This document shows, in pieces, positions 60,536 through 64,000 of a stretch of 64,000 nt of DNA. Origin of the DNA: Streptomyces sp. NBC_01460. GTDB lineage: Bacteria > Actinomycetota > Actinomycetes > Streptomycetales > Streptomycetaceae. The translations under genes and the position numbers were made by a program. Within the stretch, counting starts at the first letter, position 1; each line of letters opens with the position of its first letter. The stretch is from contig NZ_CP109473.1 of the NCBI RefSeq assembly GCF_036227405.1, positions 7,006,001 to 7,070,000 on the forward strand, written 5' to 3'. The notes under the pieces were generated by a model. The model saw only the letters and a program-made list of their open reading frames with translations, did no database searches and was not told the origin of the DNA.

Positions 60536-60653
60536 GCGGGCCGGGGCCCGGATGCGTATTTCCGCCGCCTTCCGGAGCCGGTGCGGGGGCGGACCCCGGG
60601 GAACCTCCGTATAAAGGGCTCTGAGGTCGACGCAGGCGGAGGGAGACCCCGGG

Positions 60654-61892
60654 ATGCACGGGAGCGAGCGGACGCGGCCCCACCCCCTCGGGGAGGGGCA
60701 CGGCCCGGTCCGCTACGGGCCGCCCGCCCCCGACCCCGGTCTCCCCGTGCTGCCCGAGCTCGCCGCCGTGCTGGCCGCGTCCGCCGCGCGGACCCGGCCC
60801 GAACCACCCGGTGGCGGAACGATCCTGCGGGAGGCGGCCTGCGGCTACTGGGGGCGGCGTGGCCTGCACGGCGGCCCCGACGGCATCGCGGCGGCCCCGG
60901 GCGCCCAGCCCCTCCTCCTCGCGCTGATCGCCGCCCACGGCGGCGATGTGCTCATGCCCCGGCCCTGCCCCGCCACGTGGACGCCCCAGGCACGCCTGCT
61001 GGGCCGGCCCGCCTACCACGTGCCGACGCCCGCCGAGTGCGGTGGCATCCCCGACCCGTACGCCCTGCTGGAGACCGTCCGCCGGGTGCGCGCCGAGGGC
61101 GGCAGACCCCGGCTGCTCCTGATCTCGGTGGCCGACGATCCCACCGCCACACTGGCCCCGCCGGAACTGGTGCGCGAGGCCTGCGAGGCCGCGGTCTCCG
61201 AAGGGCTGCACATCGTCAGCGACGAGACCTGGCGCGACACCCTGCACAAGCCCCACGACACCGTCCTGCTCAGCCCCGCCGAGATGTGCCCCGACGACGT
61301 CACCGTCCTGTCCGACCTGGCGGGAGCCCTCACCCCGTCCGCGTGGCCGGTCGCCGTCGCACGCTTCCCGGCCACGGCACGGGCCGCCGCGCGCCGGGCC
61401 CGGGTGCTCGACATCCTCACCGCGCTCGGCGCCCTCGTCGCGGAACCGGTCGCCCGGGCCGCCTCCCACGCGCTGGACGAACCCGAGGCCGTCACGACCC
61501 GGATCCGGCAGGCCGCCCGCCTCCAGTCCCACGTGGCGTCCGCCGCCCACCGCGCGGTGCTCACCGTCGGCGCCCTGGCCAGACCTCCGCAGGCCGGCCG
61601 CCATCTCTACGCCGACCTCGGACCGCTGCGCCCCCGGCTGGCCGCCCGGGGCGTCACGGACTCCATGGAGCTGGAGGAGTACCTGACGGAACGTCTCGGC
61701 GCGCCCGCTCCCGGGGGACACCGCTTCGGCGACGAACTGGGCGCGCTGCGGGTGCGGCTGAGCACCGGGCCGCTGCTCGGCGCAACCCCGGAGCAGCAGA
61801 CGGAGTCCCTCACTGCGGTGGAGCCCTTGGAATTGCCCCATGTCGCCCGAGCACTGAGCATTTTCGCAGCAGCCCTCGATGAACTCCGATGA
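60654..61892 (+). CDS. Aminotransferase class I/II-fold protein lacking the PLP lysine
   Basis: Protein of 412 residues with the overall layout of fold-type I aminotransferases. The segment RLLLISVADDPTATLAPPEL replaces the NPxNPTG region (Asn becomes Asp), HIVSDETWRDT corresponds to the DExY region with Asp190 retained, and VTVLSDLAGALTPSAW (216-231) aligns with the SLSKxxGLxGxRxG segment but has Gly at the Schiff-base Lys position and Pro at the phosphate-binding Arg. Lys199 is the only lysine in the whole protein. Hence aminotransferase chemistry is very unlikely; it may be a regulator or scaffold. Ends close to the metallo-hydrolase gene start, suggesting coupling. Confidence 0.8.
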   Translation: MHGSERTRPHPLGEGHGPVRYGPPAPDPGLPVLPELAAVLAASAARTRPEPPGGGTILREAACGYWGRRGLHGGPDGIAAAPGAQPLLLALIAAHGGDVLMPRPCPATWTPQARLLGRPAYHVPTPAECGGIPDPYALLETVRRVRAEGGRPRLLLISVADDPTATLAPPELVREACEAAVSEGLHIVSDETWRDTLHKPHDTVLLSPAEMCPDDVTVLSDLAGALTPSAWPVAVARFPATARAAARRARVLDILTALGALVAEPVARAASHALDEPEAVTTRIRQAARLQSHVASAAHRAVLTVGALARPPQAGRHLYADLGPLRPRLAARGVTDSMELEEYLTERLGAPAPGGHRFGDELGALRVRLSTGPLLGATPEQQTESLTAVEPLELPHVARALSIFAAALDELR

Positions 61893-61905
61893 CAGGAGCC
61901 TCTCG

Positions 61906-62931
61906 ATGACGGAACAGACCGAGCGTCCGCTCCCCGGAGCCGGACACGCGCCCCCGGGGCGTCCCGCCGCCCCTCCGCGACGTCTCGGCGAGCCCAGGAC
62001 CTGGCCCCGCTCCTTCGCCGACCGGCTCACCGCCCCGCTCCCGGGTGTCAGGGGCATGACGCGTCTGGCCAGGGAGCGCGCCCTCCGGCCCAACGCCGAG
62101 GGACTCCGCGGCATCCACCGGCTGCCCTACGCCCCCCGGCCGCTGCCCGTCGTGGACGTGGACACGACGGCCGTCACCTGGGCCGGACACGCCAGCTGGA
62201 TCGTCCGCATCGGCGGGCTCACCGTCCTCACCGACCCGGTGTGGTCACGGCGCATCCTCGGCACCCCCGCCAGGATCACCCCGGTCGGCGTCCCGTGGGA
62301 GGAACTGCCGCGCGTCGACGCCGTCCTCATCAGTCACAACCACTACGACCACCTGGACGCCCCCACGCTCCGCAGACTTCCCAGGAACACGCCCCTCCTC
62401 GTCCCCGCGGGCCTCGGCCGCTGGTGCAGACGCCGTCGTTTCACCTGCGTCACCGAGCTCGACTGGTGGGAATCGGTGGAGCTGGGCGGGGTCCGCTTCG
62501 ACTTCGTCCCCTCCCACCACTGGTCCAAGCGCACCCTCCTGGACACCTGCCGCTCCCTGTGGGGCGGCTGGGTGCTCGGCGACGCGCGGGGGCGGCGGCT
62601 CTACTTCGCGGGGGACACCGGCTACGGCCACTGGTTCGAGGAGATCGGCCGCCGCTATCCCGGCCTGGACCTGGCCATCCTGCCGATCGGGGCCTACGAA
62701 CCGCGCTGGTGGCTCTCGGACGTGCACACCGACCCGGAAGAGGCCGTACAGGCGTACGAGGACCTGGGGGCCCGGGCGATGGCCCCGATGCACTGGGCGA
62801 CGTTCGTCCTCTCCGCCGAACCGGTGCTCGAACCGCTCACCCGGCTCCGTACCGCCTGGCAGCGGGCCGGACACCCGCGCACCGACCTCTGGGACCTTCC
62901 GGTCGGCGGCTCACGGGTCCTGGAGGCCTGA
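61906..62931 (+). CDS. Metallo-beta-lactamase-fold hydrolase, NAPE-PLD/UlaG-like
   Basis: MBL-fold protein of 341 residues. The zinc motif HNHYDHLD (HxHxDH) near residue 145, SHHWSKRTLLD, the bridging Asp in FAGDTGYGHWFEE and a last His in APMHWATFVLSAEP are complete. LDLAILPIGAYEPRWW is typical of the NAPE-PLD-like/UlaG-related group, which contains phospholipases and lactonases. No signal peptide. AGGAG lies seven bases before the ATG at 61906; a longer frame begins at 61879 inside the upstream gene. It is co-transcribed with the lysine-less aminotransferase-fold gene. Confidence 0.88.
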   Translation: MTEQTERPLPGAGHAPPGRPAAPPRRLGEPRTWPRSFADRLTAPLPGVRGMTRLARERALRPNAEGLRGIHRLPYAPRPLPVVDVDTTAVTWAGHASWIVRIGGLTVLTDPVWSRRILGTPARITPVGVPWEELPRVDAVLISHNHYDHLDAPTLRRLPRNTPLLVPAGLGRWCRRRRFTCVTELDWWESVELGGVRFDFVPSHHWSKRTLLDTCRSLWGGWVLGDARGRRLYFAGDTGYGHWFEEIGRRYPGLDLAILPIGAYEPRWWLSDVHTDPEEAVQAYEDLGARAMAPMHWATFVLSAEPVLEPLTRLRTAWQRAGHPRTDLWDLPVGGSRVLEA

Positions 62932-62957: not shown

Positions 62958-63578
62958 TCAGCCGGCCATGCGCGCCCGGAGCCGCCGCCAGAGCGCCGGG
63001 GTCCCGCTGATCAGCAGCGTCAGCAGGATCGCGACGAGCACGCCCTCCCACGGTTCGGGAAACAGCGAACCGCCCAGGATCCCGATCAGCTGATACGTCG
63101 CCGCCCAGGCCAGACACGCGGCCACATCACCACGGGCGAACTGCCGCAGTGGCATCGTGCCGAGCAGACAGGCCAGCATCACCGGGATGCGCCCGGCCGG
63201 CACCAGCCGCGACAGCACCAGCACCATCGTGTCGTGCTCGTCCAGCTTCCGCTGCGCCTGGGCGAGCCGCTCCGGAGCGGCCCTGCGGGTGAGGGCCTCC
63301 AGCCACTTCGAACCGTTCCTGGACCGCACCCCGCGCTGCCCCAGCCAGTACAGGCATATGTCCCCGAGGAACGCCGCGCCCGACGCCACGGCGAACACCA
63401 CGAGCAGGGCGAACGGTGACGACTGGTGCAACGTCACCACGGCCGCCGTGCTCACCAACGCCCCCGTCGGCACCACCGGCACCAGCGACCCCAGGGCCAC
63501 CAGCAGGAACAATGTCGGATAGCCCGCGGCCTGCTGCGTCGACTCCGTCGGCAACTGCCGCAGCACTTCGTCGATCAC
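62958..63578 (-). CDS. DedA-family (SNARE-associated) membrane protein
   Basis: Integral membrane protein of 206 residues with four to five hydrophobic segments. Family residues appear in GAAFLGDICLYWLGQRGVRS and LSRLVPAGRIPVMLACLLGT (the FxRxxPxxR-type motif reads LSRLVPAGR). DedA proteins act as flippases or support undecaprenyl-phosphate and phospholipid recycling and membrane potential. Its GTG overlaps the stop of the following metallo-hydrolase gene (GTGA), so the two are coupled. Complete, usual length. Confidence 0.88.
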   Translation of the reverse strand: MIDEVLRQLPTESTQQAAGYPTLFLLVALGSLVPVVPTGALVSTAAVVTLHQSSPFALLVVFAVASGAAFLGDICLYWLGQRGVRSRNGSKWLEALTRRAAPERLAQAQRKLDEHDTMVLVLSRLVPAGRIPVMLACLLGTMPLRQFARGDVAACLAWAATYQLIGILGGSLFPEPWEGVLVAILLTLLISGTPALWRRLRARMAG

Positions 63579-64000
63579 CTACGGGCCTCCGGTCTCACAT
63601 GCTCGCCGTGGCCCAGCCGGTGGACCGCCACGTCCGGTGCCACCCGCGCCGCCTGCCTCACGAACTCGTCGCCCGGCGCGTGGAACTCGTGCGGCCGGAT
63701 CCCGTCCATCCCGATCGGCCAGTACGTGCCGTAGTGCACCGGCACCGCGGACCGCGGCTCCAGAAGCGTCAGCACCTGCGCGGCACGCGTCGCGTCCAGA
63801 TGGTGGTGGCCCAGGTTGGGGCCCCAGCCGCCGACCGGCAACAGCGCCACGTCCACCGGACCCACGGCCTCGGCCATGTCGTCGAAGAGCCCGGTGTCCC
63901 CGGCGAAGTAGGTGCGGGCCTCGCCCTCCACGACGTATCCGAGAGCGGGCACCCGGTGCGGGCCGACCGGCAGGCGACGCCCGTCGTGCAGGGCCGGGAC
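63575..64000 (-). CDS. Metallo-beta-lactamase-fold hydrolase, 5' end beyond the window
   Basis: C-terminal part of an MBL-fold protein; the frame remains open to the last base, so the start lies outside. The visible part has the bridging Asp in YFAGDTGLFDDMAEAVGP, LLPVGGWGPNLGHHHLD, and the final ligand His in PVHYGTYWPIG, as in UlaG/YtnP-like L-ascorbate lactonase-type hydrolases. The HxHxDH motif should lie in the missing half. It is coupled to the DedA gene. Distinct from the MBL protein at 61906. Confidence 0.82.
   Translation of the reverse strand, partial: VPALHDGRRLPVGPHRVPALGYVVEGEARTYFAGDTGLFDDMAEAVGPVDVALLPVGGWGPNLGHHHLDATRAAQVLTLLEPRSAVPVHYGTYWPIGMDGIRPHEFHAPGDEFVRQAARVAPDVAVHRLGHGEHVRPEARR

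Follow-up and report, generated by a model that had tools for sequence, protein, structure and literature searches.

The locus described here raises two questions: what an aminotransferase-like protein does once it has lost its Schiff-base lysine, and whether it acts as a unit with the metallo-beta-lactamase (MBL)-fold hydrolase encoded directly behind it. A first-pass annotation of the window (the whole stretch of Streptomyces DNA that was analysed, 64,000 nucleotides) had proposed such a unit, in which a pseudoenzyme regulates or scaffolds the hydrolase.

The pseudo-aminotransferase gene and its surroundings

The gene of the pseudo-aminotransferase, here called pAT, is intact as first annotated, with a full open reading frame of 412 residues and no internal stop (Table 1). 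Aminotran_1_2 (PF00155) is its only Pfam match (32.6 bits against a cut-off of 19.7), its structure is predicted with a pLDDT of 92.4 and a pTM of 0.90, and PLP (pyridoxal-phosphate) aminotransferases rank top in a fold comparison that places it in fold type I, so that all three agree with the layout read earlier from the letters. LCB1-type entries are absent among the 50 matches listed in the fold comparison, an absence that excludes nothing.

Residue columns were set by phmmer alignment to 5wml, the K306A mutant of Arabidopsis prephenate aminotransferase, and the roles of the aligned positions we take to be those of aspartate aminotransferase. The alignment reproduces the three replacements on which suspicion had first fallen, with Gly at the Schiff-base Lys, Pro at the phosphate Arg and Asp at the ring Asn. 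The single Lys of the protein, residue 199, falls outside the Schiff-base column, as had been supposed, and is found in just one of 108 aligned sequences.

Table 1. Features of the pAT locus, with positions in the window
Feature	Position	Strand	Basis
GAACCTCCGTATAAAGG, putative promoter or operator, conserved in part of the genus	60601..60617	+	comparison of loci
pAT, putative PLP-less pseudo-aminotransferase, 412 aa, PF00155 fold	60654..61892	+	ORF, Pfam, predicted structure
Ala84 codon, phosphate-cup Ser column	60903..60905	+	ortholog/sister comparison
Asp162 codon, PLP-ring Asn column (N of NPTG)	61137..61139	+	alignment
Asp190 codon, pyridine-N Asp retained	61221..61223	+	99/99 pAT
Trp193 codon, Tyr column (SDEIY)	61230..61232	+	alignment
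Gly224 codon, Schiff-base Lys column (5wml residue 306)	61323..61325	+	alignment
Pro232 codon, PLP-phosphate Arg column (Arg of GWR, eight residues past Gly224)	61347..61349	+	alignment
Arg366 codon, substrate-carboxylate Arg retained	61749..61751	+	98/99 pAT; aligns with Arg of 5wml
AGGAG, probable ribosome-binding site of hydrolase gene	61894..61898	+	read from sequence
NAPE-PLD-like MBL-fold hydrolase, 341 aa from preferred start	61906..62931	+	sequence match to 4qn9

The 17-bp element GAACCTCCGTATAAAGG lies 53 bp before the pAT start. With zero to two mismatches it precedes pAT in 35 of 106 loci, whereas shuffled controls have at least six mismatches, and several additional loci contain its core CGTATAAAGG. 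The genome from which the window comes (Streptomyces-type, 8.8 Mb) holds one exact copy of the last 16 bases and two copies with two mismatches; no clear regulon emerges there, with 13 sites at up to three mismatches against two in the control. One of the two-mismatch copies stands 59 bp before an FdhD-like ORF, so named by eye. Two ORFs, also named by eye, flank the pair: one at 62958-63578 (-) is DedA-like, and one at 63575-64000 (-) is UPF0173-like and the second with an MBL fold, the latter kind being a common neighbour across the genus.

Conservation and ancestry of pAT

Among 197 genomes of the order that were searched, 34 of them a second time, a pAT match was found in 178 of the 181 Streptomyces genomes, a count that takes in fragments and broken copies. 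No match came from three: G035, in which a Lys-bearing relative is all there is; G109; and G124, whose hydrolase gene sits at the edge of a contig. Its absence from G035 and G109, and the broken or split look of some copies (for which assembly errors may account), mean that pAT is not strictly essential. Frame-split copies, by natural loss or assembly error, were seen in G183, G194 and G108 (L095, L101, L096) and in G047 (L091).

Of the 119 loci fetched, 117 carry pAT and two (L109, L114) Lys-bearing relatives. From 108 sequences of at least 330 aa, a set of 99 pAT orthologs was obtained by leaving out these two relatives and seven frame-disturbed, over-extended or partial sequences (L018, L026, L066, L091, L095, L096, L116), none of which has Lys at position 224. 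The first-pass annotation had made its case depend on whether orthologs share the loss, and they do: Lys occupies position 224 in 0/99 orthologs and in none of the 80 named-strain loci (the best 80 of 513), all 80 of which have Gly224, Asp162, Trp193, Pro232, Asp190 and Arg366. Nearest among these 80 is Streptomyces sp. SM10, with 97% protein identity. Across the 99 orthologs, the phosphate Arg column 232 holds Pro in 90 and Arg in one, Asp162 takes the place of the PLP O3' Asn in 97, and position 193 is Trp in 87, Tyr in one and Arg, Gly, His or Ser in 11. Lys is scarce overall, with none in 59 and one in 31 of the 108 sequences. A search of the open-licence literature, within the terms used, brought no recognisable description of a Lys-less Streptomyces aminotransferase.

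The relative L109, used as query, belongs to a large family in Streptomyces, Micromonospora, Amycolatopsis, Kitasatospora and other genera (best 120 among the matches listed). A sister sample of 45 sequences, made up of 40 of these best 120 matches, L109 itself, L114 and three from genus g2, has the Lys, Asn, Tyr and Arg in every case. A class-wide search (296 genomes, E up to 1e-20) found a relative of 35-43% identity in 38 non-Streptomyces genomes, and 37 of these together with three Streptomyces second copies gave 40 further relatives, all again with the four residues, and with Asn at position 190 in seven. Set against 45/45 sisters and 40/40 further relatives, the absence of Lys from all 99 pAT sequences is far beyond chance. 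The stretches round two of the closest Lys-bearing relatives (L240, L241) have a biosynthetic-cluster-like setting; by eye, a lysine 2,3-aminomutase-like ORF lies directly upstream of the relative in L240, and L241 has AMP-binding and AfsR/SARP-like ORFs.

pAT is monophyletic (ultrafast bootstrap 100 in a 59-sequence subset, FastTree 1.0), the sister core forms a clade (100 and 0.989), and the two are joined with values of 94 and 0.78. The Lys-bearing sister family and this tree thus point to an ancestor that most likely had Lys, with the loss falling on the stem that leads to pAT.

At 25 sites the Lys-bearing group has one residue in at least 95% of sequences and pAT has that residue in at most 5%; these switched sites include Tyr49, Ser84, Asn162, Tyr193, Lys224 and Arg232. 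Asp162, Pro228, Leu255, Glu178, Glu341 and Arg357, all rare in the sister family, have become fixed in pAT (97-99 of 99). Since the PLP contacts have been switched and new residues fixed, pAT is, as judged from sequence, remodelled rather than decaying. dN/dS values of 0.110-0.330 in 12 close pairs indicate purifying selection on pAT; those of the hydrolase are 0.145-0.371 (11 pairs).

Pairing with a NAPE-PLD-like hydrolase

Among solved structures, human NAPE-PLD (4qn9) is by far the closest to the hydrolase (E 1.7e-60, 208 bits; next 38 bits). The earlier view that the hydrolase is intact is borne out by its metal ligands: the His, His, Asp and His of HNHYDHLD (HxHxDH) are present in 91/91 orthologs, the Asp of AGDTGY in 90/91, and the His of MHW in 88/91, with three gaps. 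Kinship with NAPE-PLD and retention of these ligands make phosphodiester hydrolysis the likeliest activity, and the protein would therefore most likely be a phosphodiesterase acting on an N-acyl phospholipid or similar compound. The tight coupling of the two genes, also annotated at first, holds in the form of a 13-nt gap between the pAT stop and ATG 61906; the overlap implied by the listed ORF start at 61879 is unlikely, ATG 61906 being the likelier start because AGGAG stands 7 nt ahead of it and the closest relatives have the 13-nt gap as well.

Most orthologs are paired, as the first-pass annotation had anticipated. Of 110 testable loci, 94 have the hydrolase directly downstream on the same strand and 16 do not (a further seven are untestable), and it adjoins pAT in 53 of 78 testable named loci (two untestable; the named set being the best 80 of 513). 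Among the 25 named loci that lack it are those of S. griseus NCTC13033, S. globisporus, S. microflavus and S. anulatus, while another S. griseus strain, BIG105, carries it. Parsimony requires at least six changes, which we read as independent losses of the hydrolase with pAT kept. pAT is intact in the MBL-less genomes, and a search of 15 of them found no close hydrolase ortholog, the best match being a relative of 36-42% identity. The hydrolase, for its part, occurs without pAT in G035 and G109, and in seven genomes of four other genera (57-62% identity), where it lies behind other genes. In loci of other genera (L361, L363, L364 and the more divergent L365), a small conserved ORF (MRRSHRVRQ...NLSTPLGLLIAR) precedes the NAPE-PLD-like gene instead of pAT.

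An obligate pseudoenzyme/MBL unit is contradicted by these repeated losses beside a kept pAT and by the occurrence of the hydrolase alone in other genera, and an obligate complex is thus unsupported. What stands of the pair first proposed is a conserved, intact and apparently PLP-incompetent fold that is frequently, but not obligately, found with the hydrolase. Most simply, pAT would have joined an older hydrolase locus in Streptomyces, and either gene is dispensable.

It is possible, if clearly less probable than a broader regulatory role, that pAT serves the hydrolase as a dedicated subunit, either regulating or scaffolding it. The shared strand, the frequent adjacency and the 13-nt gap in the window's closest relatives are consistent with this, as is the finding of no MBL match in 20 stretches round Lys-bearing relatives. 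Partial pAT-MBL co-divergence is 0.776 with a first neighbouring control gene (51 loci) and 0.610 with a second (19 loci), and the sole pair tested from a second MBL-less lineage (L031-L034) has a pAT dN/dS of 0.389. However, besides the losses of the hydrolase and its occurrence without pAT, the main MBL-less clade shows no rise in pAT dN/dS (28 pairs from eight sequences have a median of 0.221, versus 0.250 for 157 pairs from 63 sequences with MBL), and convergent changes in MBL-less lineages number one site against a null mean of 2.2, showing no excess. A third control, a neighbour that looks by eye like a phosphodiesterase (38 loci), correlates with pAT more strongly than the MBL does (raw 0.877 against 0.856; partial 0.632, with 0.551 for pAT-MBL). 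The co-divergence of pAT and MBL is high and not clearly specific, and we claim no specific co-evolution.

A probable regulator and its counterparts among known proteins

The loss of Lys and of most cofactor contacts, good conservation, and the usual position beside an apparently intact hydrolase gene make it probable that pAT senses a ligand or has a regulatory role and is no longer an enzyme. We propose, with a probability of about 60%, that it is a genus-wide, ligand-binding regulator free of PLP, and that the hydrolase is often, though not obligately, its target or pathway neighbour. An active actinobacterial fold-type I aminotransferase would have entered Streptomyces or been duplicated there early, and its gene would have come to sit ahead of the older NAPE-PLD-like hydrolase gene. 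To judge from the alignments, the Lys then disappeared, as did the phosphate Arg, the Ser of the phosphate cup, both the Asn and the Tyr at the ring, and the Tyr contributed by the other subunit; with these cofactor residues gone pAT should no longer bind PLP or transaminate. The fold, Asp190 and the carboxylate Arg366 were kept, new residues such as Asp162, Pro228 and Leu255 became fixed, and the old active-site pocket may, as Arg366 and Asp190 suggest, bind a small carboxylate ligand without chemistry. Such binding in a remodelled pocket would suit a sensor, and pAT, probably dimeric, would act as a ligand-dependent regulator. The hydrolase, a likely phosphodiesterase on N-acyl phospholipids or similar compounds, would be its first candidate partner, but not the only one, because many lineages lack it.

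Other roles for pAT seem unlikely. One is that of a non-catalytic subunit in a heterodimer with an active cellular aminotransferase; serine palmitoyltransferase offers a precedent, in that SPT1/LCB1 lacks the PLP Lys and SPT2 has it (PMC6148460), and the 27 PF00155 matches in the window's own genome, pAT included, would provide candidate partners. However, no Lys-bearing aminotransferase was recognised by eye in the conserved neighbour clusters, although partners need not adjoin, and the Lys-bearing sister is present in just 4 of 28 Streptomyces genomes of the class-wide search and so is not a general partner.

We also think it improbable that pAT is still an enzyme, with PLP-independent chemistry in a pocket of Asp162, Asp190, Trp193, Arg366 and His198. 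These residues are well kept (Asp190 99/99, Asp162 97/99, Arg366 98/99, His198 104/108), but Asp190 and Arg366 are common to the active sister family and position 193 holds neither Trp nor Tyr in 11 of 99 orthologs; we know of no PLP-free catalyst with a fold-type I aminotransferase fold. Chance survival of pAT as a relic in decay, to which a few frame-disturbed copies might point, is contradicted by the selection data (dN/dS 0.11-0.39), the newly fixed residues and the matches in nearly all genomes, and is very improbable; equally so is residual PLP binding, non-covalent or through Lys199, for which Asp190 and the Trp or Tyr at position 109 (92/99) might speak, given the rarity of Lys199, the many sequences with no Lys whatever, and the joint disappearance of the phosphate Arg, Ser and Tyr.

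Because pAT is genus-wide, under selection and accompanied by a living active sister family, the loss of a PLP site and its repurposing can be traced residue by residue. Most named pAT records are annotated as pyridoxal-phosphate-dependent enzyme, and pathway models that count pAT as a transaminase are for this reason likely to be in error. Its link to a bacterial homologue of NAPE-PLD provides a testable hypothesis on a little-studied family of lipid hydrolases. Human NAPE-PLD (4qn9) aligns to hydrolase residues 89-339 with the metal-ligand motifs kept; the hydrolase differs in being bacterial and in its first 88 residues, which are unaligned. A Streptomyces-wide lipid-signalling module would be a long shot: the hydrolase would release N-acylethanolamine-type or related messengers, and pAT, as an amino-acid or amine sensor by virtue of its kept carboxylate Arg, would gate it; where the hydrolase is missing, as in S. 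griseus NCTC13033, pAT would gate another target.

Closest to pAT are the Lys-bearing actinobacterial class I/II aminotransferases (P0121 family), which resemble it in fold, in many motifs and in 38-44% identity, and share Asp190 (45/45 sampled) and Arg366, but have the Lys, the NPTG Asn, the SDEIY Tyr and the phosphate Arg and Ser, all of which pAT has lost. This family has no close curated name, its best NCBIfam match being GntC, at 112-134 bits where the cut-off is 415. The aspartate aminotransferase of T. thermophilus (1bjw) and the Arabidopsis prephenate aminotransferase (5wml) are about 20% identical to pAT and have cofactor residues that it lacks.

To our knowledge, PLP pseudoenzymes of fold type I are few; LCB1, which has this fold, is the textbook case, and the TSB-like pseudoenzyme of eudicots belongs to another fold class than pAT. 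LCB1/SPTLC1 of serine palmitoyltransferase, described as an AOS-family protein without the PLP Lys (PMC6148460), is like pAT in this respect, but it requires a Lys-bearing partner subunit, and pAT has no known partner of that kind. TSB-like is a dead PLP-enzyme paralogue that allosterically activates another enzyme (PMC12727527); it resembles pAT as a dead relative of PLP enzymes and differs in being a plant protein whose partner is known. LCB1 (PMC6148460) and TSB-like (PMC12727527) are precedents for dead relatives of PLP enzymes that serve as subunits or regulators.
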